Source: Hyphomicrobiales bacterium
Lineage (GTDB): Bacteria; Pseudomonadota; Alphaproteobacteria; Rhizobiales; Rhizobiaceae
Length of the DNA stretch: 64,000 bases
NCBI GenBank assembly: GCA_900473045.1
Contig: UCKS01000017.1
Coordinates: 188,069 to 252,068 of the forward strand
Reading direction: 5' to 3'
Positions 8,971 through 43,490 of the stretch are shown here, piece after piece. Position 1 is the first letter of the stretch. Each line of letters starts with the position of its first letter. The notes below the pieces were generated by a model. The model saw only the letters and a list, made by a program, of their open reading frames with translations. It was not told the origin of the DNA and made no database searches. Position numbers and translations under genes: made by a program.

Positions 8971-9167
8971 ACGATTCCGCAAGACGTCTAGCGCCGTTCC
9001 AGCATCGGTGGGTCGGAATGTGAGTTTCAGTTCGATTTGCGCCAGTTTTTCATTTCGCGTCACCCAATTATATCTATTCTGTTGACCTAAACTATTTCTC
9101 GCGGGCTAGGCGGGTCCCTCCGAAATGAAAAAGCGGACCAAATTCCCGCGATAATCAACAGCCTGTC

Positions 9168-27822: not shown

Positions 27823-28503
27823 ATGGGTGCGGGCGACGACGGAAAGAAAACGACACGTGTCACCACGCGGGACCGAATACTGGAGGCTGCCCTGGGCCTC
27901 TTCAATGACAGGGGACCGGACCGGGTCACGACCGCGGAAATAGCGCGCACCGTCGGCATCAACGAAGGCAACCTCTATTATTACTTCAAAACCAAGGAAG
28001 CCCTGCTACAGGCCCTGTTCGAGAAGCTGGAGGGAGATGCGTCTGCTTTTATGGTGAAAGTGAGTGCGAATACCGCCACGGATCCCGGCATTTATTCGGA
28101 TTACATGCGACGCTGGTTTTCGATCATTTGGGTCCACCGGTACATTTTTCGCGATCTTCCCGGCGTCATCGCGACTGCGCCATCGCTCCGCGAGCCGACG
28201 CGTGCGCTCAGCATGGGGATGCGACTTGTCGTGGACGGGATGCTTCAGCAAATGACGGCCGCGAACTTGATAGACGTTCCGGTCGACGACGTGCCTCAAC
28301 TGCTTGCCAATGTCTGGATCGTATCGACGTATTGGGCGGTATTTCTCAGCCTGCAGGAAGGTATCGACGATCTGAGGCCAGAGCATCTTGACTGGGGACT
28401 GAAGCAGGTTGCAAGCCTGTTCAAACCATACCTGTCGGAGTTAGGGAAGGGAGAGCTACAGATCATGCTCGGTCGCTCCTTTGCGTTGGACAAGGCGCTT
28501 TGA
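27823..28503 (+). CDS. TetR-family transcriptional regulator
   Basis: 226-residue repressor. The N-terminal helix-turn-helix is TRDRILEAALGLFNDRGPDR...TTAEIARTVGINEGNLYYYFKTKEALL (residues 16-65), followed by a helical ligand domain. The ATG at 27823 follows AAGGGGC. A GTG at 27793 would place the start inside the operator and is less likely. Divergent from the P450, which it probably represses until a substrate-like ligand is present. Confidence 0.87.
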   Translation: MGAGDDGKKTTRVTTRDRILEAALGLFNDRGPDRVTTAEIARTVGINEGNLYYYFKTKEALLQALFEKLEGDASAFMVKVSANTATDPGIYSDYMRRWFSIIWVHRYIFRDLPGVIATAPSLREPTRALSMGMRLVVDGMLQQMTAANLIDVPVDDVPQLLANVWIVSTYWAVFLSLQEGIDDLRPEHLDWGLKQVASLFKPYLSELGKGELQIMLGRSFALDKAL

Positions 28504-28575
28504 TGGCCTCCAATTTCCCAGCCGGTATCGTCGCCTGCAACGCATCCGAACGGCGCGCGATCCTGACCGAAGCGG

Positions 28576-29190
28576 CTAGCGCCTTGGACGAGGGAGCATC
28601 TCGACGAACCGGTCGAACATGGCAACGTCGTATCGGAAAGGGTTTGTTTTGGTGTCTGTAATCGGAAGACCCTCCGGTAGCTCCCAGCGGACAAGTCCGG
28701 GCATGGTGTCTGCCAGCGTTTCGTACCAGTCGACAAGCGAGCTGCTCAGTCTGAGGTGCAGGTCGAAGTTGGGCCGAGATCTGCTCGCATCATGATCCCG
28801 TTGAGCCTGGGCCACATCAGGGCTCATTTTCTTGAACAGGTAGCGATCTGCAAAGCCAAGGCGCTGATTATAAAGTGCTTGCCGAGTGAACTTCAGCTGC
28901 GCGGTCCAATGAGGCTCTGCGACCTCTCCGATTTGCCACATTGCCCACATGAAATGCAGCTTCAGAGGATCAGTGTCGCAGACAGCGACACCTTGATCTC
29001 GCTCCATGGCGACAGCGTCCGACCAACGCCTGCAATTCCAGTCCGTCCATATCCGGGCGGCCTCTCCGGGGCCTGCTTGTCGATCGGGGCGCTTTTCGGG
29101 ATAGCTTTCCTTGATAAGGTACTGCGTTGCGTGGTGTCTGCACCACGTTGTTTTACCGGCTGCACTTATACCTTCAACGACGACAATCAT
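28576..29190 (-). CDS. P-loop nucleoside/nucleotide kinase-like protein
   Basis: 204-residue cytoplasmic protein with a Walker A motif at its start (VVVEGISAAGKTTW, residues 3-16), an acidic CDTDPLKLHFMW segment near residue 72 and a lid-like arginine stretch FADRYLFKKMSPD near residue 118. The layout is that of thymidylate- or deoxynucleoside-kinase-like P-loop proteins, but the substrate is unknown. It converges on the TetR gene and has no operon partner. Confidence 0.7.
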   Translation of the reverse strand: MIVVVEGISAAGKTTWCRHHATQYLIKESYPEKRPDRQAGPGEAARIWTDWNCRRWSDAVAMERDQGVAVCDTDPLKLHFMWAMWQIGEVAEPHWTAQLKFTRQALYNQRLGFADRYLFKKMSPDVAQAQRDHDASRSRPNFDLHLRLSSSLVDWYETLADTMPGLVRWELPEGLPITDTKTNPFRYDVAMFDRFVEMLPRPRR

Positions 29191-29792
29191 TTCTGCTCAG
29201 CGGTTTTTGCAAGGCGTGGTTCTAGGCCGACGACGTTTTTGCCGTAAATAGCAGGCTGATGCAACGCTAAGCAGCTGAGGGCGACTTCACTTGCGGACAA
29301 GAAGGCCCCAGTTTTTTGCAAAAGCGCTGCGACATCCGTCCGTTACGATCAGCGCGAACTGAGATGAGGCCCGGGCAGGGAATATTTGTTCTCGGTAGCA
29401 GTCGATCGAGATGCTGCAGCATCGTTACCAGCCCGCATGGTCAGGACGCCGAGATTGAACGCCGTGCGCTCTGGCCTCGACGGCGGGCGGGCGCAGTAAG
29501 GCCACGTACCCGCCTGTTTTGTTAGTGGTGGTTTGCTCTAACGAATATGCTGATCGCTGTTTCGCTCGCCATGCTCAGTCAAAAGGCTGTCAAATTCCGG
29601 CGCCAACAGATCATTCGGCGAATGCGAAGAAAACCGCGCGCGCCATCTGGGCGTCGGTCTCCCCGGTCAGAGCTGCACGGCAGGCCTTCAGCGCCAGCTC
29701 GCGCGCCGGATCCGCAGGGGTTCGCTATTCCATAAGGATCTGAAAAACCTGCATGACCGCGACAGCCGAGGTCCTGATCAGGGGGAAGGACT
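29191..29792. other. 600-bp intergenic region with a possible DUF982 relic
   Basis: On the minus strand, 29729 to 29611 reads ADPARELALKACRAALTGET, then DAQMARAVFFAFAE and a stop. This resembles the C-terminal half of DUF982, a small family restricted to rhizobia-like bacteria. A TAG closes the frame just upstream, so it is a fragment. Nothing else in the interval is recognisable. Confidence 0.4.
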
Positions 29793-32081
29793 TCACGCGG
29801 ATCCGCGGATCCTCACCGGAACACCCTTGTAGGCTGGCGTTCCGGATTTTCGGTCGTAATCCGACAGTGCAATGACATGGTTCATTTCGGCGTAATACCC
29901 AGCCACCGAGCCGGGCGGAATGTCATATGCAACAGCAGTAAACCCGGCCACGGTTTTTGCACCAGTTTCCGAAATCGCTTCGATGTCGATCAGCTCGCCG
30001 TCGGCAAGTCCGCGAATTTCCAGGTCCTTGCTGTTCATGAAGATCAAATCGCGACGACCGAAGACGCCACGATAGCGGTCATCAAGACCGTATATAGTGG
30101 TGTTGTACTGGTCGTGGCTGCGCAAGGTGGTTAGGACGAGCGCATCGGGGTCACGCAAGCGGGCGTCCTCATCCAGACCCGGCGCGACAAGAAATTCTGC
30201 TTTGCCGGACGGCGTATTCCATACCCGGTCCGAAGCTGCGACAGTGAGGCGGAAGCCACCGGGCGTTTTCACGCGGGTGTTGAAATCATGGAAATCTGGA
30301 AAGACGATCTCGATCTTGTCGCGGATCAGGCCATAGTCGCCGGCCATGTCCTCCCAATTGATGCCATGCCTTTCGCCAAGCGTTGCCCTGGCCATGCCGG
30401 CGACGATCCATGGCTCCGAGCGCAACTGGTCGCTCGGCGCCTTGAGGAACCCGCGCGACGCATGCACCATCGACATGGAATCCTCCACCGTAACGGACTG
30501 GCGTCCCGACGCCTGAATGTCCAGATCGGTGCGACCCAGAACCGGCAGGATGATCGACGTCTTCGCCAGCAGCAGATGCGAGCGATTGAGCTTTGTCGCC
30601 AAATGGATGGCAAGATCTAGCTTTCGCATACCCGCGAACGTCGCCTCGGGATCTGACATGGCGACGGCAAGGTTGCCACCGAGGCAGACCAGGGCTTTCG
30701 ACCTGCCGTCAATAATAGCGTCGATGGCCTCCACGGCATTGTGTCCCTTTTCCGAAGGCGGCCGAAAACCAAATGCTCTTTCAATGCCGTCGAGAAGGGC
30801 GGCATTCGGGATTTCGGTGATGCCAACGGTACGATCGCCCTGGACATTGGAATGGCCGCGAAAGGGGCATATGCCGGCGCCTGTCCGGCCGATATTACCC
30901 CGCAGCATGAGGAAATTGGCGAGTTGCTGGACATTCGCCGTGCCATGGGCATGCTGGGTGATGCCCATGCCATAACAAAGGATAACGTTCTTCGCCTTGA
31001 GATAGACATCGACCGCGCTGTCCAGCGCTTCGAACGACAGACCGGACTTTTCGACGATATCAGACCATTCCGTGCGCTCGATATCGGTCTTCAGTTCGTC
31101 CAGGCCAATGGTGTGGGCCTCGATGAACTCGCGATCGAGCACGCCCGCTCCACCGGACGCGATATCGACCGCGTCTCGCTCGAAGATACGCTTCATCAGG
31201 CCTTTGAGGGCTGCAAGATCGCCGCCTGTTCGAACCTGGTGATAGGCTGAGGCGATTGGCGTCGAGGACATCGTTGTCATCTCGATCGGGTCCTGCGGCG
31301 CGGCGAAACGCTCCAGTGCCCGCTCCTTGAGTGGATTGAATACGACAATCGGCACGCCACGGCGCGAGGCCTCATGTAATGTCGTCATCATACGCGGATG
31401 ATTGGTACCGGGATTGTGGCCGAACGAAAAGATGGCGTCGCAATTGTCGAAGTCCTCCAGCGTGACCGTGCCCTTTCCGACGCCGATCGACAGGGGCAGG
31501 CCGACGCTGGTGGCCTCATGGCACATGTTGGAACAGTCAGGAAAATTGTTGGTACCATAGGCGCGTACAAACAGCTGGAACAGGAATGCCGCCTCGTTCG
31601 AGGCCCTGCCGGAGGTGTAGAATTCCGCCATATCAGGGCTGGGCAGGCTGTTCAGTCCTGAGGCAATACGGGCGAATGCGGCGTCCCATTCGATCGGCAC
31701 ATAGCGGTCGCTCGCCTGATCGTAGATCAATGGATGTGTCAGGCGGCCTTGGTCTTCAAGCTTGTGGTCGGTCCACTGCCAGAGGTCGGTGACGGTATGA
31801 GCGGCGAAGAAATCTGGGCCGACGCGCTTGGCCGTGGATACCCAGGTGATCGCCTTGGCGCCGTTCTCGCAGAATTCGAAAGAACTGGTGTGCTTGGGGT
31901 CGGGCCAGGCGCAACCGGGGCAATCGAAGCCGTCGGGCTGGTTGGCTTTCAACAATGTCGCCGCGCCCTCGGCGATGATCTGCTGGTGCGCCAGCGTTTT
32001 CGCAACGGCCTTGAGCGCACCCCATCCGCCTGCCGGTGCGGTGTAGCTCTCGATCCCATCCGGACGCTTCTCGCTCATCAC
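29793..32081 (-). CDS. FdhF/YdeP-family molybdopterin oxidoreductase
   Basis: 762-residue protein of the formate-dehydrogenase-alpha-like YdeP family. The N-terminus has a GFDCPGCAWPDP...FCENG cysteine motif for an Fe-S cluster. The molybdopterin core includes FYTSGRASNEAAFL, NFPDCSNMCHEAT (putative Mo-ligand Cys), FGHNPGTNHPR, and a C-terminal cofactor-binding domain beginning VLTTLRSHDQYNTTIYGLDDR. It has no Tat leader, so it is cytoplasmic. In E. coli, YdeP is linked to acid resistance. Preceded by GGGAGAGTG and divergent from the MFS gene, with a shared box at 32132. Confidence 0.87.
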   Translation of the reverse strand: MMSEKRPDGIESYTAPAGGWGALKAVAKTLAHQQIIAEGAATLLKANQPDGFDCPGCAWPDPKHTSSFEFCENGAKAITWVSTAKRVGPDFFAAHTVTDLWQWTDHKLEDQGRLTHPLIYDQASDRYVPIEWDAAFARIASGLNSLPSPDMAEFYTSGRASNEAAFLFQLFVRAYGTNNFPDCSNMCHEATSVGLPLSIGVGKGTVTLEDFDNCDAIFSFGHNPGTNHPRMMTTLHEASRRGVPIVVFNPLKERALERFAAPQDPIEMTTMSSTPIASAYHQVRTGGDLAALKGLMKRIFERDAVDIASGGAGVLDREFIEAHTIGLDELKTDIERTEWSDIVEKSGLSFEALDSAVDVYLKAKNVILCYGMGITQHAHGTANVQQLANFLMLRGNIGRTGAGICPFRGHSNVQGDRTVGITEIPNAALLDGIERAFGFRPPSEKGHNAVEAIDAIIDGRSKALVCLGGNLAVAMSDPEATFAGMRKLDLAIHLATKLNRSHLLLAKTSIILPVLGRTDLDIQASGRQSVTVEDSMSMVHASRGFLKAPSDQLRSEPWIVAGMARATLGERHGINWEDMAGDYGLIRDKIEIVFPDFHDFNTRVKTPGGFRLTVAASDRVWNTPSGKAEFLVAPGLDEDARLRDPDALVLTTLRSHDQYNTTIYGLDDRYRGVFGRRDLIFMNSKDLEIRGLADGELIDIEAISETGAKTVAGFTAVAYDIPPGSVAGYYAEMNHVIALSDYDRKSGTPAYKGVPVRIRGSA

Positions 32082-32131
32082 ACTCTCCCTTTAGCATGCT
32101 TCCGCAACTCTAACATCGGACGGATCTATGA

Positions 32132-32155
32132 GAACCTAGACCCATGTATAGGTTC
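32132..32155. promoter_or_regulatory. Recurring operator, copy 1 (fdhF-like / MFS)
   Basis: On the minus strand this reads CYATACRDRGGTSTAGGTT-type sequence (CTATACATGGGTCTAGGTT). The element is also an inverted repeat GAACCTA-N10-TAGGTTC (32132-32155). It lies 51 bp before the fdhF-like start and about 80 bp before the MFS start. Matching copies occur at 37181 and 39573. Confidence 0.65.
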
Positions 32156-32233
32156 GGGTAGACGTCCATTGAATGTGCCTGAAACGCCATTCGCCATACC
32201 TTGACCCGATCACGTTGGCGATGGAGCAGGGTC

Positions 32234-33457
32234 ATGAAAAAAACAGAACAGATGCAGGTCGGGGTGGCGAGCCCCGCCCACAATGATGGGATCGGACAAG
32301 TCGCGCTGCTGGCCATGGCCGTTGCGGGCGGGATTGCTGTTGCAAACATCTATTACAATCAGCCGATGCTCGGCCTCATCGAGGCGGATTTCAGCCAGCA
32401 GTCGATCACCGGCATGGTGCCCACGGCAACGCAGCTCGGCTATGCATTGGGGCTCTTTCTGCTGCTGCCACTCGGCGACCTCGTTAACCGCCGTCGCATG
32501 ATCATCGGTCAATTCGTCGTACTGGCAGCCGCCCTCGCACTCGCAGCACTGGCGCCGACTGCATGGATGCTTGTTGCCGCTTCGATTATCGTTGGAGCCT
32601 GCTCGACGGTGGCCCAGCAGATTGTCCCCGTTGCCGCATCGCTGGCAGCGCCGGAAAAGCGTGGCGCTACAATCGGCACGGTCATGGCAGGCGTGCTGTC
32701 AGGTATATTGTTCAGCCGCACCCTGTCGGGCTTCGTCGGCGAACATGCGGGCTGGCGGGAGATGTTCTGGATTGGAGTGCCGCTGGCGCTGCTTGCCGCA
32801 GGTCTCATGTTCGCGGTCCTGCCGCATCATAGGCCGACATCGACTTTACGCTATCATCAGGCGATCCGGTCGCTCGGTCAGCTCTGGAAACGTCACCCAG
32901 CCTTGCGGGCTGCGACGATCATCCAGGCATTCCTGTTTGCATCGTTCACAGCCTTCTGGACTATTTTGGCCCTCTATCTCGCAGGGCCAAAATTCCAGCT
33001 TGGAGCGGATGTCGCAGGTCTTTTTGGGATCGTCGGTGCTGTGGGCATATTCGCAGCACCCCTGGCCGGCCGCGTCGCCGACACGAGGGGACCTCACTTC
33101 GTCGTCTGGATGGGCGCGGGCCTGACGATTGTCGCCTGGCTGATCTTCGGCGTCTGGGCATCGATCGTGTCGCTGGTTATCGGCGTGATTGTGCTCGATT
33201 TCGGGATACAGAGCGCCCTGATTTCCAATCAGCACATCATCTACGCGCTCGACGCCGATGCACGCAGCCGTCTCAATACGGTGTTTATGACAGGTATGTT
33301 CCTAGGAGGCGCCGTGGGTTCGGCAATGGCGACATTTGCCTGGGGGCAGGGTGGGTGGCTCTTCGTCAGCCTGCTCGGCGCCGCACTTGGCATCGCAGCC
33401 TTCGCGGTAAAGATCATTCATCATCGCCGGCCTTCGCCGACGGTTATCGGGCACTGA
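32234..33457 (+). CDS. MFS transporter (YgaY/drug-efflux-like)
   Basis: 407-residue membrane protein with about 12 hydrophobic segments. The first helix is followed by NIYYNQPMLGLI and the MFS loop LPLGDLVNRRRMI. A second loop, GRVADTRGPH, marks the C-terminal half. This NIYYNQP signature is typical of the small-molecule efflux group found in many proteobacteria. The ATG at 32234 is preceded by GGAGCAGGGTC. It is 10 bases before the FAD monooxygenase gene and likely co-transcribed with it. Confidence 0.87.
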   Translation: MKKTEQMQVGVASPAHNDGIGQVALLAMAVAGGIAVANIYYNQPMLGLIEADFSQQSITGMVPTATQLGYALGLFLLLPLGDLVNRRRMIIGQFVVLAAALALAALAPTAWMLVAASIIVGACSTVAQQIVPVAASLAAPEKRGATIGTVMAGVLSGILFSRTLSGFVGEHAGWREMFWIGVPLALLAAGLMFAVLPHHRPTSTLRYHQAIRSLGQLWKRHPALRAATIIQAFLFASFTAFWTILALYLAGPKFQLGADVAGLFGIVGAVGIFAAPLAGRVADTRGPHFVVWMGAGLTIVAWLIFGVWASIVSLVIGVIVLDFGIQSALISNQHIIYALDADARSRLNTVFMTGMFLGGAVGSAMATFAWGQGGWLFVSLLGAALGIAAFAVKIIHHRRPSPTVIGH

Positions 33458-33467
33458 GGGCGGGACA

Positions 33468-34583
33468 ATGAAACAGCTTCGGATCAGGATCGTCGGCGGT
33501 TCACTCGCCGGTCTCTTCGCCGGCAACATGTTACAGCAGGCGGGTCACGATGTTCGCATCTACGAGCGATCGAGGGACGGTCTTGCCTGCCGGGGCGCGG
33601 GCCTGGTCGGTCAGAGCGATCTGTTGCACATCCTCCGACTGATAGGATGCGAGCATGTGGCGCGAGTCGGCGTCGTTGCCAAGGAACGCATCTATCTCAA
33701 TCAGGACGGCAATATCGCCCAGGCTGTGAACATGCCCCAGACCCAGATATCCTGGGATGTCCTGTTCGAAACCGTCGCATCGCGTATCGCCCCCGAAACC
33801 TATTTCCTGGACCGGGACGTCGTCGATGTGCTGGACGGCGAGAACGGTGCGGAACTGGTTTTTGGTGATGGCACGCGCGAGACAGCCGATCTGGTGATCG
33901 GGGCCGATGGCCTCGGTTCCGTAGTGCGTGGTGCGGTCAATCCAAAGGACAATCAGAATCGTTATTCCGGCTATGTCGCCTGGCGCGGGTTGATCCCGGA
34001 GGCGAGCCTTCCGACGGCCGCTGCGCTGCTGCTCGACCGGTTTGCTTTCTATGTCCGGCCGGGCGTCCATGCGCTCGGCTATCTGGTCCCAGGTTCCAAG
34101 GGTGAGATGGATATTGGCAGCCGCCGCTACAACTGGGTCTGGTACCGCAAAGTGCTGCCAAGTGAACTTGCTGGCACCTTCACTAATCTCGATCATCGGA
34201 CGTATGCTTTCTCGCTGCCGCGTGGCGGTTTGTCGAACGAGCGACTGCAGGCCTTGCACACTGACGCTGCGCAGATGCTGCCGCCGCAATTCGCGCTGGC
34301 GGTCGAGGCCGAGCCAAGTCCGTCTATCCAGGGCATATTCGCCTACGAAGCCCCACGTATGATCGGCCGGTCGATCGTGCTGATCGGTGATGCCGCCTTC
34401 GTCGCGCGGCCGCACACTGCGATGGGCGTGTCGAAAGCGGCCGGCGATGTTATGGCCTTGAGCAACTACCTCGCGTTCGAGACTGATCTTCGCACTGCCC
34501 TCCGGCAATTCGAGGCTGAGCGCATCTCCGTTGGCCGGGAAATCGTCGCTTATGGTCGGCAGCTCGGTGCATCGGCAATTTGA
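33468..34583 (+). CDS. FAD-dependent aromatic monooxygenase-like protein
   Basis: 371-residue flavoprotein of the PHBH/UbiH fold. It has the N-terminal dinucleotide motif RIVGGSLAGLFAG (residues 7-19), the conserved DG motif LVIGADGLGSVVR near residue 140, and the GD motif IVLIGDAAFVARPHTAMGVSKA near residue 302. It resembles the dihydroxypyridine-hydroxylase-like branch. It follows the MFS gene by 10 bases, suggesting modification and export of one aromatic or heterocyclic compound. Ends before a strong bidirectional hairpin. Confidence 0.85.
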   Translation: MKQLRIRIVGGSLAGLFAGNMLQQAGHDVRIYERSRDGLACRGAGLVGQSDLLHILRLIGCEHVARVGVVAKERIYLNQDGNIAQAVNMPQTQISWDVLFETVASRIAPETYFLDRDVVDVLDGENGAELVFGDGTRETADLVIGADGLGSVVRGAVNPKDNQNRYSGYVAWRGLIPEASLPTAAALLLDRFAFYVRPGVHALGYLVPGSKGEMDIGSRRYNWVWYRKVLPSELAGTFTNLDHRTYAFSLPRGGLSNERLQALHTDAAQMLPPQFALAVEAEPSPSIQGIFAYEAPRMIGRSIVLIGDAAFVARPHTAMGVSKAAGDVMALSNYLAFETDLRTALRQFEAERISVGREIVAYGRQLGASAI

Positions 34584-34622
34584 GCGTCGATCGATCGTCT
34601 ATCACGTTTATGAATGAAATTT

Positions 34623-34658
34623 CGACCCGCCGGCATCAGCCAGCGGGTCGTTTGATTT
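34623..34658. terminator. Bidirectional hairpin terminator
   Basis: CGACCCGC (34623-34630) pairs with GCGGGTCG (34643-34650), followed by TTTGATTT. It sits between the convergent FAD monooxygenase and cNMP-flavoprotein genes, so it can end both transcripts. Confidence 0.65.
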
Positions 34659-34674
34659 GAGATGTCCGATTGCG

Positions 34675-36348
34675 TCAGCGCGGGATCTTCATCAGGCTGA
34701 GTGCAGCGTGGATCTGGGAGACAACGGCGGCACCTTCCCCGACTGCGGCCGCGACCCGCTTGGTCGATCCGGCCCGGACGTCGCCGATGGCAAAGACGTT
34801 CGGCAAGCTGGTCTCCAGCGGAAGAGGCTTGCGGGTGAAGCTGCAAAGCGCGTCGAAAGATTGTCCGGTGATGATGAAGCCTTTGTCATCGGTATGGACG
34901 CGGTCGCTGATCCAGCTGGCATTCGGATCGGCTCCGATGAAGAGAAAGAGATGATGAAGCGACAGCTGTCGCTCGCTGCCATCCAGCCGATTGCGCAGGG
35001 TGGCGGATTTCAGGCCGCCCGTGGGATCGCCTTCGATCGCATCCACTTCGCAGCGCATGTGCAGTTCGACATTGGGGAAAGCCTTGATGCGGTCGATCAG
35101 ATATTGCGACATCGTCTCTTCGAGCGCCCGCCGGACGACGAGATGCAGTTTCTTGACCTGAGGTGCCAGAAAAGCGATGGCCTGGCCGGCTGAATTGCCG
35201 CCGCCAACCAAGGCGATCTCTTCGCCTGCACAGAGTTTCGCTTCTATTGGAGAAGCCCAATAGGAGACGCCATTGCCCTCGAAGCTCTCGATGTTGGCTA
35301 TATCCGGGCGCCGGTAGTGCGCACCGGAGGCAATGACGACCGTGCGCGACGTCACGGCCTTTCCACCTGCGAGCTCCAGCGTCAGCACACCGGTATCGCG
35401 CTCGGGCGCAATCAGGCTGTTGACCGAGACTGGCAGGACCATTTCGGCGCCGAATTTAAGTGCCTGATTATAGGCGCGCCCGGCCAGTGCCTGGCCGGAT
35501 ATGCCTGTCGGGAAGCCAAGATAGTTTTCGATGCGTGAGGAAGCGCCTGCCTGCCCTCCCACCGAACGTTCGTCGATGACGACGACATCGAGCCCTTCGG
35601 AGGCGGCATATACGGCTGTGGCGAGGCCAGCCGGCCCGGCGCCAACGACGGCAACGTCATAAAGCTTGCCGGGCTTAAGTTCCGGAGTCATGCCGAGGCA
35701 TGCCGCTGCTTCCGCGTCGGTCGGGTTCTTCAGTACCGTTCCATTGGGGCAGACCATCAATGGCAGTTCGGATGCGAGGATGCCCAAGCGTTCGATCAGG
35801 GCACGGCCTTCGCCTTCGGTGGCGGAATCGAGCACGAGATAGGGAAAGGCGCTGCGGGCAAGAAACCCTTGCAAACGCGAAAGTGCGGCATTGCCGGTGG
35901 CGCCGATCAGAACCGAGCCCGCGCCGGCATCAATCAGCCCAACCCGACGCAGGATGAAGGCGCGCATGATAATCTCGCCGACATCTGCCGAACCGATCAC
36001 CAGGGCGCGAAGATGGGCTGCATCGAACGCAACCGCGGTGCAGCCGTTGGAGCCGGCCCGCGCGCCGGCCAGTGTCGGACGGCCCGAAAGTTGATTGACC
36101 TCGCCTGACAACTGACCGACACCATGGGTGGTGATCGGCGCCTCATGCGTCAGGCCTTCATGCCGGAAAACGTCCATCGATCCTTCAAGCACCAGCCAGG
36201 CAGGTGCTGCGTGATCGCCGACCTTGTAGACAAATTCGCCTGCTTCAAAATGCTGCGGCTCGCCACTGGCAAAACGTTTGGCCGTCTCGACCTGACGAGG
36301 GCTCAGCACCGGAAACATCTGGTGCTGTCTTGCGCTGAGGTCCGCCAT
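34675..36348 (-). CDS. cNMP-binding domain fused to thioredoxin-reductase-like flavoprotein
   Basis: 557-residue fusion. Residues 15-125 look like a cyclic-nucleotide-binding beta-roll (FEAGEFVYKVGDHAAPAWLVLEGSMDVFR). A linker follows, then a thioredoxin-reductase-like domain from about residue 235: FAD motif VVGAGPAGLATAVYAASEG, NADP motif LVGGGNSAGQAIAF, and C-terminal FAIGDVRAGSTKRVAAAVGEG. The redox CxxC of true thioredoxin reductases is replaced by GVSYWASPIEAKLC, so disulfide chemistry is unlikely. The ATG at 36348 follows AGGAGAAAAATTG. It is followed upstream by the UBP zinc-finger gene on the same strand. Confidence 0.88.
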   Translation of the reverse strand: MADLSARQHQMFPVLSPRQVETAKRFASGEPQHFEAGEFVYKVGDHAAPAWLVLEGSMDVFRHEGLTHEAPITTHGVGQLSGEVNQLSGRPTLAGARAGSNGCTAVAFDAAHLRALVIGSADVGEIIMRAFILRRVGLIDAGAGSVLIGATGNAALSRLQGFLARSAFPYLVLDSATEGEGRALIERLGILASELPLMVCPNGTVLKNPTDAEAAACLGMTPELKPGKLYDVAVVGAGPAGLATAVYAASEGLDVVVIDERSVGGQAGASSRIENYLGFPTGISGQALAGRAYNQALKFGAEMVLPVSVNSLIAPERDTGVLTLELAGGKAVTSRTVVIASGAHYRRPDIANIESFEGNGVSYWASPIEAKLCAGEEIALVGGGNSAGQAIAFLAPQVKKLHLVVRRALEETMSQYLIDRIKAFPNVELHMRCEVDAIEGDPTGGLKSATLRNRLDGSERQLSLHHLFLFIGADPNASWISDRVHTDDKGFIITGQSFDALCSFTRKPLPLETSLPNVFAIGDVRAGSTKRVAAAVGEGAAVVSQIHAALSLMKIPR

Positions 36349-36404
36349 CAATTTTTCTCCTGGCCTGGAACGTGTCAATAACGGAATTGCCGGTTCGAGA
36401 TGGT

Positions 36405-36710
36405 TTAGTAATAGCGAGGTATTGGTCCGCGCTGCGGGGTCTGGTCCGGTAATTCGACCATGGTCTCGTCAACGAAACACCATCCCCAGCCTTCCGGCGG
36501 ATCGTAACCTTCTATGATCGGATGCTGTGTGGCATGAAAATGTGCCGTGGCGTGGCGACCGGGGGATTGATCGCAGCAGCCGACATGGCCACACTCGCGG
36601 CAGAGCCTCAGGTGAAACCAGGCCTGTCCTGTTTCGAGGCACTCCTCACAGCCGAGGGTTTTCGGCCGAACAGTCTGAATCGTCGATGTGTGCGAACAAC
36701 CGTGCGACAT
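36405..36710 (-). CDS. UBP-type zinc-finger protein
   Basis: 101-residue protein that is almost entirely a UBP (ubiquitin-hydrolase-type) zinc finger: GCEECLETG, LRLCRECGHVGCCDQS and HATAHFHATQHPII supply the Cys and His ligands, followed by WGWCFVDETMVEL. In bacteria such stand-alone fingers are often encoded next to thioredoxin-reductase-like flavoproteins, as here. The function is unknown; it may be an adaptor recognising a C-terminal tail or a redox-active zinc site. Confidence 0.88.
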   Translation of the reverse strand: MSHGCSHTSTIQTVRPKTLGCEECLETGQAWFHLRLCRECGHVGCCDQSPGRHATAHFHATQHPIIEGYDPPEGWGWCFVDETMVELPDQTPQRGPIPRYY

Positions 36711-36743
36711 GGATTTCTTACCCCTTGTTGACGTCAGATATTT

Positions 36744-37115
36744 TCACTGTTTCAACGCCTGTTCCAGACACTGTACCAATTGGTCAAAATTCACCGGCTT
36801 GCCGAGAAAAGCAAATGCTCCGCCAGTCATCGCCGCCGCCCTTGTTTTGTCGTCGCTGTAGGACGTCATGAAGATCATTGGTGGCTTCAGCGCATCTTGT
36901 TCGTTCAGCACAGCCTGCAGCTCGAGCCCCGTGAGACCAGGCATCTTGACGTCCACGAGCATGCAATCGATCGAGGCGAGTTCCTGCGCAGCAAGATACT
37001 CCTCCGCGGATGTGAACAGCCGGCTGTGATAGCCGCAGGACAAAATGAGATCGTCAAGCGCTTCGCGGATCGATCGATCATCATCGACGATGGCTATGAC
37101 TGGTGTTTTGTGCAA
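36744..37115 (-). CDS. Single-domain response regulator (FixJ-type receiver)
   Basis: 123-residue receiver: acidic residues in AIVDDDRSIREAL, phosphoacceptor Asp in CMLVDVKMPGLTG near residue 55, switch Thr/Ser in IFMTSYSD and Lys in FLGKPVN near residue 106. There is no DNA-binding domain. The start is a TTG at 37115 (upstream AAGGCC); a stop closes the frame nine codons before it. A copy of the recurring operator lies 66 bases upstream. The receiver most resembles that of the neighbouring FixJ-like regulator and may compete for phosphate from the same kinase. Confidence 0.85.
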   Translation of the reverse strand: MHKTPVIAIVDDDRSIREALDDLILSCGYHSRLFTSAEEYLAAQELASIDCMLVDVKMPGLTGLELQAVLNEQDALKPPMIFMTSYSDDKTRAAAMTGGAFAFLGKPVNFDQLVQCLEQALKQ

Positions 37116-37180
37116 TTTCTTTGGCCTTGCCGTGTTGGATCAACAACCCGGTATATGCGCCTTCGAGACCGGTCCTTGTA

Positions 37181-37200
37181 CCATACAAGGGTCTAGGTTT
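37181..37200. promoter_or_regulatory. Recurring operator, copy 2 (receiver/UBP/flavoprotein operon)
   Basis: CCATACAAGGGTCTAGGTTT on the plus strand, differing at only a few positions from the copies at 32132 and 39573. It lies just behind the stop of the FixJ-like gene and 66 bp before the TTG of the receiver gene. It is thus in position to drive the minus-strand unit receiver-UBP-flavoprotein. Confidence 0.65.
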
Positions 37201-37206
37201 TTGCTC

Positions 37207-37848
37207 TCACAGACCAAGCAGCTCGGCCTTCCGGACCAGATCGGCGACCGAGCGCGCGTCCATCTTGCGCATGACATTGCCGCGATGCAGTTTGACCGTG
37301 ATTTCGCTGATGCCAAGGTTGAAGGCGATCTGCTTGTTCATCAGGCCTTGGACGACAGCCGCCATTACCTCGTGTTCGCGACGTGTTAATGTCTTGGCGA
37401 GTTCGGAAACGGCGCCATTTGCAGCAGACTGTTGGCGCAGGTCCCGATCTTTCTGGAAAGCTACAGCGACAGCATCGAGGATATCCTGATCCCGGAACGG
37501 TTTTGCCAGGAAATCCACCGCGCCGGCTTTCATTGCCCGCACGGTCATCGGTATGTCGCCATGGCCGGTCATGAAGATGATCGGCATCTGGTTACCGAGT
37601 TTTTCCAGATGTAGTTGGAAGTCGAGACCATTGGCGCCGGGTAGCCGCACGTCGAGCAGAATGCAGCCCGGTCGTTTGAGATCGGCCTTGTCCAGCAGGT
37701 CATGCGCGCTCTCGAAGGCCTTTGCTTCCGTTCGGACCGACAGAAAGAGATCGATAAGCGCCTCGCGGATCGAGGGATCGTCATCCACGATGTAAACGAC
37801 AGGCGTATCGTTGTTCGTGGTTTTGGCGGATTTTCTGGCATCATTCAT
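37207..37848 (-). CDS. FixJ/NodW-type response regulator
   Basis: 213-residue transcription factor. The receiver occupies residues 15-130 (YIVDDDPSIREAL, Asp in CILLDVRLPGANG, Thr in IFMTGHGD, Lys in FLAKPF). The LuxR-type DNA-binding domain covers residues 145-210: LTRREHEVMAAVVQGLMNKQ...LGISEITVKLHRGNVMRKM. The start overlaps the stop of the histidine kinase gene by eight bases, so the pair is translationally coupled. It is the best candidate for binding the repeated box at 32132, 37181 and 39573. Confidence 0.9.
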   Translation of the reverse strand: MNDARKSAKTTNNDTPVVYIVDDDPSIREALIDLFLSVRTEAKAFESAHDLLDKADLKRPGCILLDVRLPGANGLDFQLHLEKLGNQMPIIFMTGHGDIPMTVRAMKAGAVDFLAKPFRDQDILDAVAVAFQKDRDLRQQSAANGAVSELAKTLTRREHEVMAAVVQGLMNKQIAFNLGISEITVKLHRGNVMRKMDARSVADLVRKAELLGL

Positions 37849-39418
37849 GGACTGCCTCCATCGGCACGATCATTTCGAACAACGCCCCGCCTCCTGGATG
37901 ATTGCTGGCGGTTAGTGAGCCACCACGGGCTTCCAGCATGCTGCGGCAAATGGCAAGGCCCATGCCGAGACCTGTCTTTTTGGTGGTGCAGAATGGTTTA
38001 AACAGATTTTTGAGGACTTCCGGACTAAGCCCCGGGCCAGTGTCAAGAACACCGACCCGAATGCCCTGGCCGCCAGCCGGTTCGATCGTTACCGAGATCC
38101 GTCGAAGCTCTTCCGGCGTCGCGGCCATGGCCTGAATAGCGTTGGTGAATAGGTTGATCAGCACCTGCTGCAGCTCGATGCGGATAGCAGTGACATTGGT
38201 GATCGCAGGAGCCTCGCTCGTCTCGAATGTAATCCTATTCTTGGAAAGCTCGCTCTGCATCAAAGCCTGTGTCTCGTTGACGAGATTGGCCAGTGACATG
38301 GCCTCAAGGACCGGTGCGCGCTCGCTCAACATCGACCGCGTGCTCCGGATAATGTCGCTGGCGCGTTGGCTGTCGCGCGCGATCCGCTCGGCCGACCGGG
38401 AGACCGCAGCCAGATCCGGCGGATCACGGTCAAGCCAGCGCTGAAGGGTTTGGGCATTGACGACAATTGCACCGAGTGGCTGGTTGAGTTCGTGCGCTAG
38501 CGATGCAGACAGGGCGCCGACGGTAGCTGCGCGTGAGGCAAGCGCCAGCTCCGCCTGCGCCTCGAACAACGCCTTCTGAGCAAGTTCCCGCTCAGTGATA
38601 TCGAACATGCCGACAATGACGCGGTTGAAATTGCTAACGTCCACCGGAAAGCCGACCGTCAGCAAAACCAGCTTGGTGGTGCCGTCACTGGTGATGATCG
38701 TGCCCTTGCCCTCGAAATAGCTTTGATTGTCGAAGATCGCCACCATGAGGTCGAGAAAGGTCTCGTCATCGTGCGCGATGTAGCGGCGCATTGAACCGGC
38801 ATTCTGCGCACTGACATTTCCGAGAACCTCCAACGCAGCCGCATTGGCGGCAACTGTCGGGATGCGCGCGATGCAATCGGCAATGAAGTCCGGGTTGTCC
38901 CGCGCATAGGCACGCAGATCGACAACACCCTGCGACTTCAATCTCATCAACGACGCGCGCACCTCAGAATAATCACGCTCCCAAAGGGCGACACGGCTCT
39001 GTTCGAAAATTGTGCGATATCGTTCTTCGCTGCTCTGCAAAGCAGCATTGAATTTTATAAGGTCAAGACGCGCACGGTGGTTTCGGATGATCAGCGCACA
39101 AGTGATCGATATTGCAGCGACGGCAACAGTCAGGCGCAATATTGCCGCCAGGTCGGCGTCGGTGCCGTGGGCCGCGGCATAGGAGAGTATTGAGAGAACG
39201 ATACAGACCGCCGTCATCAGCAGCGTTCCCCTTTCCGTCAGCGTTTCCGCCGACAGAAGCAGCGTGATGACATAGAGCGTGGCAAGCGCACTGTGGATGT
39301 CGGTGAACGTATCGAGATAGAAGACTGTCGTTGCAAGAGCAAACGCGAACGAAAGAATGCCGATTTCGTAGCGTGCCGATAGTCGTCGTTTCGGGTTCAC
39401 AAGCACAAGCGAAGGCAT
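37841..39418 (-). CDS. Membrane sensor histidine kinase
   Basis: 525-residue kinase. Several hydrophobic segments lie in residues 15-115. A PAS-like region follows (FEQSRVALWERDYSEV...VGMFDITERELAQKAL, about 135-285). The phosphoacceptor His is in SLAHELNQPLGAIVVNAQ near residue 308, the N-box is INLFTNAIQAMAATPEE, and ATP boxes DTGPGLSPEV and GLGMGLAICRSM follow. The kinase core is the FixL/NodV-like HisKA type that pairs with FixJ-like regulators. No heme-PAS histidine pattern could be assigned, so oxygen sensing is not claimed. Confidence 0.9.
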   Translation of the reverse strand: MPSLVLVNPKRRLSARYEIGILSFAFALATTVFYLDTFTDIHSALATLYVITLLLSAETLTERGTLLMTAVCIVLSILSYAAAHGTDADLAAILRLTVAVAAISITCALIIRNHRARLDLIKFNAALQSSEERYRTIFEQSRVALWERDYSEVRASLMRLKSQGVVDLRAYARDNPDFIADCIARIPTVAANAAALEVLGNVSAQNAGSMRRYIAHDDETFLDLMVAIFDNQSYFEGKGTIITSDGTTKLVLLTVGFPVDVSNFNRVIVGMFDITERELAQKALFEAQAELALASRAATVGALSASLAHELNQPLGAIVVNAQTLQRWLDRDPPDLAAVSRSAERIARDSQRASDIIRSTRSMLSERAPVLEAMSLANLVNETQALMQSELSKNRITFETSEAPAITNVTAIRIELQQVLINLFTNAIQAMAATPEELRRISVTIEPAGGQGIRVGVLDTGPGLSPEVLKNLFKPFCTTKKTGLGMGLAICRSMLEARGGSLTASNHPGGGALFEMIVPMEAVHE

Positions 39419-39572
39419 CCCGGTTCTCGTGGTGATGTCGATTGCCTCATCAAGCCATCCCGGTTGGCAAAACGCAAACGCAAAATCGGCTTTTCCCGTG
39501 CAAACTCAGACCGATAGGTTGGCCGTCGCAGTAGCGTTAGGGAGGGCGTTTTTAGATGCCCAAATTTCCGAA

Positions 39573-39593
39573 ACTATACGGAGGTGTAGGTTC
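39573..39593. promoter_or_regulatory. Recurring operator, copy 3 (dps / histidine kinase)
   Basis: CTATACGGAGGTGTAGGTTC on the plus strand, the third copy of the box. It is about 84 bp before the dps ATG and 155 bp before the divergent kinase start. A weaker resemblance (GACCGATAGGTTGG) lies near 39510. Confidence 0.6.
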
Positions 39594-39676
39594 GACTAGC
39601 CAAGCATTGGATAGCATCGTGTCGTCCGCCGAAATAAAAAATCCTCATTAGCCCACACAATCCAAAGGAGACCATC

Positions 39677-40195
39677 ATGGACCGCACGCTCGCTGAGAAA
39701 CATCGCAAGTCGCCACTCGCAACGCCGACAACCCTCGGTGCCAACGCAACGACCGACATATCCGGCGCCCTGTCGGCGCTGCTGGCCGATGTCTTCGCAC
39801 TCTATCTGAAGACCAAGAATTTCCACTGGCACATGAGCGGGCCGCATTTTCGCGATTACCATCTGATGCTCGACGAGCAGGGCGAGCAGATCTTCGCAAT
39901 GACGGACGATATCGCCGAGCGGGCCCGCAAGATCGGTGGCACGACGATCCGCTCGATCGGTCATATTTCCAAGCTGCAGCGCCTGCTCGACAACGATGCA
40001 GATTTCGTGGCGCCGGCCGACATGCTGGCCGAACTTCGCGACGACAACCTGACGCTGGTTTCGTTGATGAAGGAAACCCACAATCTCTGCGACGAGCATG
40101 GCGATATCGCCACCGCCAGCCTGATCGAAAACTGCGTGGACGAAGCCGAGCGCCGCGCCTGGTTCCTGTTCGAAAGCACCCGCGCTGCCAAGTAG
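39677..40195 (+). CDS. dps: Dps-family DNA-binding ferritin
   Basis: 172-residue Dps protein. The ferroxidase-site motif is TKNFHWHMSGPHFRDYHLMLDEQGEQIF (residues 46-73), with a four-helix ferritin fold and a basic N-terminal tail (MDRTLAEKHRKSP) suited to DNA binding. It oxidises and stores iron using peroxide and protects DNA during stress. The ATG follows AAAGGAGACCATC. It sits beside the FixJ-type two-component genes and carries their candidate operator upstream. Confidence 0.93.
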   Translation: MDRTLAEKHRKSPLATPTTLGANATTDISGALSALLADVFALYLKTKNFHWHMSGPHFRDYHLMLDEQGEQIFAMTDDIAERARKIGGTTIRSIGHISKLQRLLDNDADFVAPADMLAELRDDNLTLVSLMKETHNLCDEHGDIATASLIENCVDEAERRAWFLFESTRAAK

Positions 40196-40263
40196 GCGCA
40201 CCACCTCTTCACCGTGCATGCCGGCCGCCGGCACTTGGGCAGCTGGAAATATCAGAAAAATCA

Positions 40264-40398
40264 ATGTTGAACGAACTTTCGCTTTCACGCCGCCAGGTCC
40301 TCTTGACCGGCGCCACGATGTCACTGGCCCTGGCTGTTCCGGCCTTGGCTGCAGAGAAGAAAACGCTACACACAAGGGATTTGACCCATGACTCATAG
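40264..40398 (+). other. Orphan twin-arginine leader ORF overlapping the hydrolase start
   Basis: A 44-codon frame reads MLNELSLSRRQVLLTGATMS, then LALAVPALAAEKKTLHTRD, and stops 11 bases inside the next gene. It is a textbook Tat signal peptide (SRRQVLL, hydrophobic core, ALAA cleavage site) with no mature protein. The downstream hydrolase is in a different frame; a single-base change would fuse the two. It may be the relic of an exported hydrolase or of another lost gene. Confidence 0.55.
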
Positions 40399-41230
40399 TT
40401 TCGTGACGACGAAAGACGGCGTTGAAATTTTCTACAAGGACTGGGGCCCGAAGGAGGCACAACCGATTGTGTTTCACCATGGCTGGCCTTTGTCGTCCGA
40501 CGATTGGGATACCCAGATGCTGTTCTTTGTCAGCAATGGTTACCGCGTCGTCGCACATGATCGCCGCGGCCACGGCCGTTCGTCTCAGGTCAGCAACGGT
40601 CACGACATGGATCACTACGCCGCCGATGCTTCAGCCGTGGCCGAGCACCTCGACCTGCGCAACGCCGTCCATATCGGCCATTCGACAGGCGGCGGCGAAG
40701 TCGCTCGCTACGTCGCCAAATATGGTCAGCCGCAGGGGCGTGTCGCCAAGGCCATTCTCGTCAGTGCCGTTCCGCCGCTCATGGTCAAAACCGCAGGCAA
40801 TCCTGATGGCACGCCGATCGAAGTATTTGATGGCTTCCGTGACGCTCTCGCCGCCAATCGCGCGGAGTTCTTCCTCGACGTCGCCTCTGGGCCATTTTAC
40901 GGCTTCAACCGGGAAGGCGCGAAGGTCTCTCAAGGCGTGATCGACAATTGGTGGCGCCAGGGCATAATGGGCAGCGCCAAGGCCCATTACGACGGCATCA
41001 AAGCCTTCTCGGAGACCGATCAGACGGAAGACCTGAAGGCGATCACCGTGCCGATTCTGGTCACACAGGGTGATGACGATCAGATCGTTCCCTACAAGGA
41101 TGCCGTGGAGCTCCAGGCCAAGCTGCTGAAGAACAGCACCCTGAAAATCTACAAGGGCTTCCCCCACGGGATGCTGACCACGCATGCCGACGTCATAAAC
41201 CCAGATCTGTTGGCCTTCGTCAGAGCATAG
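40388..41230 (+). CDS. Alpha/beta hydrolase, non-heme chloroperoxidase type
   Basis: 280-residue hydrolase starting [20 protein letters not shown]. It has the oxyanion region [17 protein letters not shown], nucleophile Ser in [15 protein letters not shown] near residue 99, acid in [12 protein letters not shown] near residue 229 and His in [10 protein letters not shown] near residue 258. This is the cofactor-free haloperoxidase/arylesterase group, active as an esterase or perhydrolase. Its own start is canonical for the family, so the enzyme is probably cytoplasmic despite the Tat leader just upstream. It ends before a clear terminator. Confidence 0.88.
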
Positions 41231-41254
41231 TCGTTTAACCCGCAAAATTTACTA

Positions 41255-41284
41255 TGGCGGTCAATCAGGCCGCCACATTTTTTG
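41255..41284 (+). terminator. Rho-independent terminator
   Basis: TGGCGG (41255-41260) pairs with CCGCCA (41270-41275), followed by CATTTTTTTG. It lies 25 bp after the hydrolase stop codon. Confidence 0.75.
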
Positions 41285-41713
41285 GGCTTTCTGGCATGAG
41301 CGACACATGTGAGTGTGTTGTCTGGCAGGCGTGGTTGTCTGAAAGGAGATGTCACTGTCGTTAAACTTAACGACTTCGTCACTGCCTGACTGCTTAATTG
41401 AAGTGAGCAGCGCAGATCGCGGTCGCAGGTTCGAGTCAGGACGTCCGCCAAAAGCTACGGAACTATAAATCCCACTACGAGTTTTGCCGGCGAGGATCGT
41501 AGCCGGTGCCAATCAGACATGAGGACGAATGGCGACCATGGGAAGTTATCCATTCTTCCGGTGTCACCAAAACGTCGCCGGCGACTGTCCAAGATCGACT
41601 GAGTTTCGTTGCTTTACGGGAGCGAACTCGCGCCTCACATCGATGGTGCCCCGACAAGGTTATGCATCAAGGGAACTGACCGATTGTAACTGCCTCCACA
41701 AGATGGGTTCAAA
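41285..41713. other. Intergenic, no gene recognised
   Basis: About 430 bp between the terminator and the FAD/NAD(P)-binding gene. It contains a short tRNA-like T-arm sequence ending CCGCCA at 41421-41450 that does not fold properly. No convincing coding frame. Confidence 0.45.
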
Positions 41714-43405
41714 ATGACGAGCATCGCCATCATCGGCTCCGGGCCGACCGGGATTTACACGTTAAAAAGCCTGATGGAGAGCGAAACGCCGCTTTCCGTG
41801 ACTGTTTACGAAGCCACCGCTGATCCGGGCAAGGGAACACCATATCATCCGCGCGCCAACGACCGGGCGATGCTTGCGAATATAGCCTCCATCGAGTTGC
41901 CGCCGGTCTGCGAGAGCCTGACGCGTTGGCTTCAGCGAAAAAGTCCGGCCGAACTTGCAATGCTTGGCATTCCGGTCGAAACGATTGGCGAACGGGAATT
42001 CTACCCGCGTGTCGTTCTCGGAGAGTATTTCGAGGCGCAGCTCAAGGCACTGTTGGCGAAGGCAGTTACGGGCGGGCACGTCGTTGACATCAAAGCCAGC
42101 CACCGGGTCGTGGATATCCAGCTCAGAGAGCGCGATATCCACGTGGACGTCGCAACCGCTGACGGCGTTACGGAGCACCAGGCGTTCGACCACGTCGTCA
42201 TGGCCACGGGCCATGACTGGCCTAAGACAACCGAGACCAAACCGGGGTTTTTCATCTCGCCATGGCCCGCGAAAAATCTGGACACGATCGGCGATGTCTC
42301 TGTCGGCGTACTTGGAACGTCCCTCAGCGGAATCGACGCGGTGGTCTCGGCTGCCACTTCCCATGGTTCCTTCCTGCTCGATGACGCCGGAATGATGCAG
42401 TATCACTCGGCATCCGGCCCTAGTTTTCACCTGACGATGATGTCTAGGAAAGGGCTTTTGCCGGAAGCCGACTTCTACTGTCCTATCCCATATGAGCCGC
42501 TTTCGATTTTCACGGACGCTGCGGTCGATAGTCTTGTGCAGACCGTTCCAGAAAAGCTGCTCAACGAAATGTTCGAGCTTTTTCGGGCGCAACTCTTCGC
42601 CAGCGATCCCGCATATTCCGAGCGCATCGGACTTGGCATGCGTACTGTCGAGACCGTGGCAGACGCGTATTTTGCCGAGCGGGAAACTTACGATCCTTTC
42701 ACCTGGGCTGCACTGAACCTCGGAGAGGCCAGGGCTAACAAGGCGACGCACACCACCGTCGCCTGGCGATATGCTATCCTGTCCATGCACGAAACCGTCC
42801 TCCGGGCGGTTCCGCATTTCAACGACGAAGACCTCAAACGCTTCCACAAATACTTCAAGACGCTGTTCGTGGATGATTATGCGACCGTGCCGCACCAGTC
42901 GATCGAACGGCTGCTGGCGCTCCACCGGGCAGGGAGGCTCTCAGTCCTCAAACTCGGACCGGATTACAAGCTCGACAAAGATAGTGTCGAAAAAGGAGCC
43001 GTGATCGAGATCGGCGACGATCGGCATGCGTTCACAGCGTTTATCGACGCAACAGGTCAGCATGCCGTCTCGGCCTGGGATATCCCATTTCCAAGTCTGA
43101 TCTCGCAAGGCGTAGTTCGCGAGGCGCGGACAGAGAAGGCTTCGACGGCATTAGCAATGGCTGACGATACGGCCACCGTCGCGACGGGCGGTATCGATCT
43201 CGATAGCCAATTCCGGCCGAAGTTCGAAAAGCCGCTGAGCCATAACCTCTATTGCGTGTCTATACCGTTTCTCCTTCACAAACTGCCGTTCGTCCAGGGG
43301 ATTACGAGCGCGGAGGAGCTCGGACGCCTTGTCGCGAATGCCATTCTCGACGATGTCGCAGGCAATAAGTTTCGCCTTGAGGTGGTGCGGAAAGTGGTCG
43401 CATGA
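41714..43405 (+). CDS. FAD/NAD(P)-binding protein (NAD_binding_9-like)
   Basis: 563-residue flavoprotein. The N-terminal dinucleotide motif is IAIIGSGPTGIYTLKSL (residues 4-20), then GKGTPYHPRANDRAMLANIAS. A second nucleotide-binding segment, VSVGVLGTSLSGIDAVV, is near residue 195. A late motif FIDATGQHAVSAWDIPF precedes the C-terminus. This matches the large family of uncharacterised FAD/NAD(P)-binding proteins related to hydroxyacylglutathione-like and siderophore-type monooxygenases. No partner gene is intact beside it. Confidence 0.8.
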   Translation: MTSIAIIGSGPTGIYTLKSLMESETPLSVTVYEATADPGKGTPYHPRANDRAMLANIASIELPPVCESLTRWLQRKSPAELAMLGIPVETIGEREFYPRVVLGEYFEAQLKALLAKAVTGGHVVDIKASHRVVDIQLRERDIHVDVATADGVTEHQAFDHVVMATGHDWPKTTETKPGFFISPWPAKNLDTIGDVSVGVLGTSLSGIDAVVSAATSHGSFLLDDAGMMQYHSASGPSFHLTMMSRKGLLPEADFYCPIPYEPLSIFTDAAVDSLVQTVPEKLLNEMFELFRAQLFASDPAYSERIGLGMRTVETVADAYFAERETYDPFTWAALNLGEARANKATHTTVAWRYAILSMHETVLRAVPHFNDEDLKRFHKYFKTLFVDDYATVPHQSIERLLALHRAGRLSVLKLGPDYKLDKDSVEKGAVIEIGDDRHAFTAFIDATGQHAVSAWDIPFPSLISQGVVREARTEKASTALAMADDTATVATGGIDLDSQFRPKFEKPLSHNLYCVSIPFLLHKLPFVQGITSAEELGRLVANAILDDVAGNKFRLEVVRKVVA

Positions 43406-43490
43406 GACGTGCGCCTCTACCTTTGGTTTAAGCGGAACAATAGCCTTGTCCGATGGTTGTGCTTTTTCTTCCAGCCAAAGGAACATGCAT

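Follow-up and report, generated by a model that had tools for sequence, protein, structure and literature searches.

Our study reports on a predicted operator and its likely target genes in a 64,000-nucleotide stretch of DNA (hereafter the window) from a Rhizobiaceae member of the Hyphomicrobiales (assembly GCA_900473045.1, contig UCKS01000017.1, positions 188,069 to 252,068 of the forward strand). Three copies of a 24-bp box built on the dyad TATAC-N4-GTNTA lie in a gene block that encodes a sensor kinase and a response regulator with a LuxR-type (GerE) helix-turn-helix (REG), and we conclude that these boxes are very probably the operator of that regulator, encoded at 37207..37848 on the minus strand (PF00072 and PF00196). 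The box itself is real: exact copies are found only at its own locus, it co-occurs with the regulator, and its positions are conserved in relatives. To the explanation as a whole, in which the operator and the circuit proposed below are taken together, we assign a probability of roughly 0.8. This stress-response circuit of a soil bacterium, with similar sites beside related systems in many bacteria, is apparently undescribed; in the open-licence literature, with subscription papers mostly outside it, we recognised no paper describing this box or regulon.

Three boxes in the window

Box 1 (GAACCTATACATGGGTCTAGGTTC, 32132..32155, minus strand) is a near-palindrome between the divergent fdhF/YdeP and MFS-FAD monooxygenase genes, box 2 (TGTACCATACAAGGGTCTAGGTTT, 37177..37200, plus strand) lies between the regulator stop and the receiver start, and box 3 (GAAACTATACGGAGGTGTAGGTTC, 39570..39593, plus strand) lies between the kinase gene and dps. 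From the box edges to the listed open reading frame starts we measured 49-51, 66, 84 and 155 bp, in agreement with the 50-155 bp given by an initial annotation made from the sequence alone; its count of 14 invariant positions out of 21 was also reproduced by hand, and the element is present as a 24-mer at all three places. An IUPAC pattern derived from the three copies, allowed up to three mismatches, matches the 64-kb window exactly three times, at the boxes, where shuffles lead one to expect 0.07 matches, a statistic that says little because the pattern was built from the same copies. The mutual likeness of the copies counts for nothing by itself: the best triple of intergenic 21-mers in the window has 14 invariant positions, and resampled (first-order) intergenic sets equal or better this, with 14 or 15, in 12 of 12 cases. 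Three-copy similarity was accordingly rejected as stand-alone evidence, and the case for the box therefore rests on comparison with other genomes. An Rfam scan of 28000-44000 gave no element above the gathering score, and a sigma-70 consensus scan of 31900-40500 gave 3 sites, with 2.7 expected and none at the boxes.

The exact box accompanies the close regulator

A scan of its own genome (6,776,767 bases) that tolerated up to three mismatches placed the pattern at five sites, the three exact copies described here and two elsewhere at three mismatches, and the reversed pattern at 22; the core YATACNNRGGTNTRGG occurs without mismatch at three places, all at this locus, and its reversed control at none. 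Over 19 chosen genomes the core is found at 24 places against 3 for the reversed sequence, with a match in 13 of the genomes and none in six, and seven of the 24 places fall in one genome, G100. The exact box is present in only 4 of 247 family genomes (G000, G175, G127 and G169), and a search of the same 247 genomes with REG places the same four at the top (100, 93, 90 and 86% identity), the next best match standing at 69%. By hand calculation, the chance of four out of four coinciding is about 7e-9, a figure to be read in the knowledge that the genomes are related and that G000 and G175 share a genus. In G175, G127 and G169 the exact box adjoins the regulator gene. Two same-genus genomes, G103 and G234, have no box within two mismatches and no REG match at E 1e-60, and the exact box is missing from all 25 further family genomes in which every REG match at E 1e-60 or better is more distant (69% at best). 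The box is thus not scattered through the genome without link to these genes, a finding that would have told against the initial annotation; its proposed survey of related genomes has instead tied the exact box to the close regulator.

The loci of relatives comprised 79 from named species genomes, seven plasmid loci and further genome stretches. The positions are kept in close relatives, where one box follows the stop codon of the regulator gene, another separates the kinase gene from dps, and a third precedes the MFS gene if there is one. The box 2 place shows 0-1 mismatch in 9 of 9 aligned close relatives, and the box 3 place 1-4 mismatches in eight aligned close relatives. A box of the box 1 type precedes the MFS gene in L045, L146 and L158, where fdhF adjoins, and in L159 and L164, where no adjoining fdhF is annotated; in L159, the Rhizobium leguminosarum plasmid pRL9b4, virB11 stands in place of fdhF and the box before the MFS gene is still there. 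Some relatives have fewer than three boxes: L147, L160 and L161 have no MFS-type box, and L162 and L163 are without more of the boxes. The block, or part of it, is plasmid-borne in Pararhizobium, R. leguminosarum, R. ruizarguesonis, Agrobacterium and Neorhizobium, and two of the plasmids are typed as conjugative.

The site also recurs in more distant systems. A matrix made from the close Rhizobiaceae sites, its matches counted separately per strand, gave at a threshold of 11 a total of 51 matches in 61 distant loci (L054-L114) and 0 in the reversed sequences, while a matrix made from the three window boxes alone (the three-box matrix), at a threshold of 14, detected 35 sites (3 in the reversed control) in the 14 loci whose REG is 65-74% identical, and 24 (control 2) in the 64 loci whose REG is at most 63% identical. 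The 170-bp interval around and after the REG end contains the core ATAC-N4-GT in 48 of 79 loci; tiles taken from these loci lead one to expect 2.7. When 87 regulators are arranged on a tree, presence of the core at that place (in 55 of them) requires 11 changes, against 26.1 after shuffling, a difference that near-copies favour. Related sites were found beside regulators down to about 55% identity.

Genes preceded by the box

Counts of genes with an upstream box cover 83 loci (the window itself, the 79 named-species loci and three further genome stretches) and use our own gene calls and a refined matrix score of at least 15. A box precedes the receiver gene in 50 of 63 cases, fdhF in 12 of 16, the MFS gene in 6 of 12, dps in 10 of 20 and the kinase gene in 34 of 82; the alpha/beta hydrolase (5/21) and monooxygenase (2/10) genes follow, and all other genes stand at 71 of 1058. 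The reversed control yields 0 or 1 per gene class. The initial annotation had inferred that the box would link the receiver, fdhF, MFS and dps genes, and these are indeed the genes that in other loci carry it far above the rest. Scanning 59 of the 71 box-preceded other genes identified 15 AraC-type regulators, four formate/nitrite channels and four HlyD-type adaptors.

Some individual sites deserve mention. In Bradyrhizobium (L060, L062, L068, L072, L081, L082 and L084) a mostly palindromic box stands 144-168 bp before a gene for an AraC-type regulator near the kinase. The myxobacterium Pyxidicoccus fallax (L098) has a strong box, at 8983 and at 13238, 88 bp before each of two 285-aa genes, the second of which encodes an alpha/beta hydrolase. 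Agrobacterium sp. CGMCC 11546 (L160) has a both-strand box at 3904-3922, about 170-190 bp before a gene run for cytochrome c, 2Fe-2S and molybdopterin proteins.

A variant of the StyR/TodT site

Regulators of the FixJ/NarL class abound in soil and plant-associated bacteria, and the binding site is known for only a few of them. Compared with solved structures, REG is closest to StyR (1yio, E 7.1e-55), with FixJ (5xso) at 1.4e-37, and it reaches 202.9 of 255 bits against the NCBIfam FixJ equivalog, under the cut-off; the 'FixJ-like' of the initial annotation is better read more narrowly, as StyR-like inside the NarL/FixJ class. The StyS/StyR and TodS/TodT systems control aromatic catabolism, whereas the targets in the window resemble stress and redox genes, and the TodS and StyS kinases are large hybrid proteins, whereas the window encodes a 525-residue membrane kinase.

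For StyR, TodT, TutB and TmoT, the consensus ATAAAC-N4-GTTTAT has been published (PMC5874301). The window boxes, YATAC-N4-GTSTAG, do not match it exactly; they have in common with it the AC-N4-GT dyad, the spacing and TA flanks, TA-x-AC and GT-x-TA being kept in boxes 1 and 3 and box 2 having CATAC. The difference is mainly one position per half, TATAC or CATAC against TAAAC and GTCTA or GTGTA against GTTTA. By its sequence, the TATAC-N4-GTNTA site counts as a variant of the published StyR/TodT motif. The DNA-contacting helix reads EITVKLHRGN in REG and EVTVKVHRHN in StyR, and in a hand-counted alignment, with the numbering of PMC5874301, REG keeps the Lys of the StyR recognition residues Lys175, Val176 and His179 and has Leu and Gly at the other two. 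The change of contact residues alongside the change of site is suggestive, no more.

The arrangement of a kinase, a GerE-type regulator and a single-domain receiver is also that of FixL/FixJ/FixT, whose targets differ from those predicted here. The FixL equivalog of NCBIfam scores the kinase at 168.8 of 850 bits, under the cut-off and still its best NCBIfam match. FixT has been described as a receiver that binds Fe-S and acts in feedback control (PMC7078487). NodW/NwsB was considered as a source of a known box, and nothing was found in those parts of the literature that were looked at.

Promoter anatomy

Fifty receiver promoters aligned on the box share a second conserved element, GCATAAG, whose commonest distance from the 24-mer, in a search of 15-22 nt past the box, is 18 nt (24 of the 50 promoters), and the -10-like score at 17-21 beats the average of the other slots in 47 of 50. 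Its counterpart in the window is GCATATA (37152..37158, minus strand), which lies 18 nt beyond box 2, at a position conserved in relatives, and is the -10-like element of that promoter. In the receiver promoters some 34 bp separate the box centre from the -10 centre downstream, which places the box near -44, and the box has the same orientation before the receiver gene in 50 of 50 cases; at dps, fdhF and MFS both orientations occur. For dps, alignment points to GGATAG (39609..39614, plus strand), within the conserved stretch CTAGCCAAGCATTGGATA, as a possible -10; dps promoters keep a CTAGCCAAGCATTGGATA-like stretch after the box, which would put the box near -40. A possible -10 of fdhF, also suggested by alignments, is TAGAGT (32107..32112, minus strand). 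The high-affinity site of StyR lies at about -40 from the start site (PMC2442086). The near-fixed -10 spacing before the receiver gene suggests class II activation by the box-bound regulator, which we somewhat favour as the mode of action. One -10 spacing common to all targets was considered and rejected, the spacing being seen before the receiver gene only.

Weighing the assignment against its rivals

Several results weigh against the boxes being the operator of REG. With up to two mismatches the pattern occurs at 67 places in 52 of the 247 family genomes, by hand count no more than the reversed control, and because of this looser matches are uninformative and only exact or near-exact ones count; in the distant loci the three-box matrix at low thresholds likewise gave 252 sites against 277 in the control at 8, and 104 against 88 at 10. 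A sister clade of 14 REG rows has the core at the REG-REC place in only three, a clade of eight on the 87-regulator tree has it at the REG end in none, and many of the loci are related, over ten being from Bradyrhizobium. Upstream boxes were found for only 6 of 95 regulator genes and 0 of 9 flavoprotein genes (UBP, 0 of 1). The refined site matrix was trained partly on sites later scored with it, and the -10 matrix on the same receiver promoters that it scored; applied at the same offset, this receiver-type matrix finds nothing at the kinase, dps, fdhF and MFS boxes.

The sites might belong chiefly to another FixJ/StyR-type paralogue, or to several paralogues with a common site type. Such regulators are numerous, the own genome encodes a second REG-like protein (61%) on contig C52 that might bind the box too, and related sites reach out to the more distant regulators noted above; the exact box nevertheless goes with the close regulator and is missing from the 25 genomes with a distant REG only, and the best site around the C52 regulator (L155) scores 15.6 and does not precede a called gene, which makes this reading improbable. 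The near-fixed spacing and single orientation at the receiver gene would also fit a promoter, box plus -10, for an alternative sigma factor. This we regard as quite unlikely, since the box is a dyad, it lies between divergent genes and in both orientations at the other targets, and no sigma factor is among the 10 block proteins scanned. That the three copies are alike by chance, as the equally good triples of the resampled sets would allow, is the least probable of these explanations and very nearly dismissed by the conserved places in relatives, the co-occurrence across genomes and the held-out scans, which did find the site in relatives. The assignment of the boxes to REG, as first put forward in the initial annotation, is thus supported by sequence comparison, through the co-occurrence of box and regulator and the StyR/TodT type of the site.

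Proposed circuit and possible function

In the circuit that we propose, the membrane kinase would phosphorylate the regulator, and a regulator dimer would bind the dyad TATAC-N4-GTNTA. Positioned at about -40 to -44, it would activate the REC-UBP-flavoprotein genes in the class II manner, and the same box-bound activation may extend to dps, perhaps to the kinase-regulator operon itself (autoregulation), and to the fdhF/YdeP and MFS-monooxygenase genes. The induced lone receiver could then compete for phosphoryl groups and so damp the response. Such a circuit might protect the cell from redox stress and from stress by acid or organic acids (oxalate/formate).

A role in an acid/oxalate-formate response is a tentative prediction, made because the target sets resemble those of EvgA. 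In E. coli, ydeP and the operon of an MFS pump, emrKY, are under the direct control of EvgA, which also regulates the oxalate genes frc and oxc, and it has been suggested that YdeP takes part in an oxalate-formate cycle (PMC8174306, PMC4283999); the role of YdeP in acid resistance was without a proposed explanation until a suggestion of 2014 (PMC4283999). REG is of the same broad regulator class, and boxes here precede an MFS gene and a YdeP-family gene that is above the TIGR01701 cut-off and, as counted above, often box-preceded in other loci; in some relatives boxes also precede EmrA/EmrK-type adaptor and oxalate decarboxylase genes. The systems differ in that REG is no EvgA orthologue (49.9 of 251 bits against the NCBIfam EvgA equivalog, under the cut-off), in that EvgS has a large periplasmic domain, and in that no AraC-type or glutamate-decarboxylase protein is among the 10 block proteins scanned.

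A gene for oxalate decarboxylase (TIGR03404 above cut-off) lies around REG in 9 of 83 loci, whereas just 4 of 101 family genomes, searched whole, have one anywhere; the comparison is rough, the loci being drawn from several families. Two more homologues near REG fall under the cut-off, one of them cut by the locus end. In Agrobacterium pusense the box stands before a small gene 1 bp ahead of oxalate decarboxylase, and in G100 it stands before oxalate decarboxylase on contig C14, the best regulator match being on C16. Boxes precede 4 of 4 formate/nitrite channel genes in the loci, all close kin, and 2 of 3 pyruvate-oxidase-like genes. Telling against this role, the box is directly upstream of only 2 of these 11 homologues near REG, and no oxalate decarboxylase above the TIGR03404 cut-off is encoded in the own genome. 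Near 2083 on C14 of G100 (L151), the box lies between oxalate decarboxylase and a divergent gene whose product looks, by eye, like a porin-like outer-membrane protein.

Still more speculatively, Alphaproteobacteria and their relatives may share a widespread and previously undescribed kinase/regulator/receiver system that has an operator of its own, TATAC-N4-GTNTA. This system would sense oxalate/formate or acid stress, control a portable set of defence genes (for a YdeP-type oxidoreductase, exporters, Dps, oxalate decarboxylase and a formate/nitrite channel) with the lone receiver as brake, and have evolved independently of EvgSA as its counterpart. A site that can be read from sequence would make the target genes of this regulator subfamily predictable across many genomes; the locus offers three promoters ready for testing and proposes an acid/oxalate-formate stress function for genes such as YdeP.

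The gene block and its proteins

The kinase gene (37841..39418, minus strand) overlaps the REG gene by 8 bp. Its product has four N-terminal helices, membrane-spanning in appearance and with a conserved DT.T stretch, followed by a PAS-like domain, HisKA and HATPase. The predicted structure has a mean predicted local distance difference test score of 77.2 and a predicted template modelling score of 0.39, and the best Foldseek matches are a blue-light photoreceptor (4gcz) and chimeric LOV-histidine kinases; these structural matches say that the predicted protein is a PAS-like sensor with a kinase module, and name no signal. The N-terminal third, the four-helix, membrane-like sensor region, is without a Pfam match at E 0.001, and two other box-preceded reading frames (L165 and L178) start, by eye, with a similar stretch.

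The single-domain receiver (REC; 36744..37115, minus strand; PF00072) has D55 and K106, kept in 60 of 60 aligned receivers. For comparison with the Fe-S receiver FixT, its Cys51 is conserved in 55, Cys116 in 38 and Cys27 in only 13 of the 60. On the same strand follow genes for a UBP-type zinc-finger protein (36405..36710; PF02148) and a cNMP-binding, thioredoxin-reductase-like flavoprotein (34675..36378; PF00027, PF07992), with a terminator-like stem downstream of the latter at 34650-34623.

The FdhF/YdeP family molybdo-oxidoreductase (29793..32081, minus strand) scores 934.5 bits against TIGR01701 (cut-off 582.15) and 989.9 of 1473 bits against the YdeP equivalog itself, under the cut-off. 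Across box 1, the MFS transporter gene (32234..33457, plus strand; PF07690) is followed after 10 bp by that of the FAD-dependent monooxygenase (33468..34583, plus strand; NF005566, PF22607). Dps (39677..40195, plus strand) matches PF00210 and falls under the cut-off of the NCBIfam Dps model. An alpha/beta hydrolase gene (40388..41230, plus strand; PF00561), a neighbour in relatives, is possibly a later gene of the dps unit. A 44-codon reading frame at 40264-40398 contains a twin-arginine-like stretch (SRRQVLL) and runs, in a different frame, into the first 11 bases of the hydrolase gene; annotations give the hydrolase as a single longer gene (972 bp) in L158, L159, L161 and L164, and as two genes in L160.

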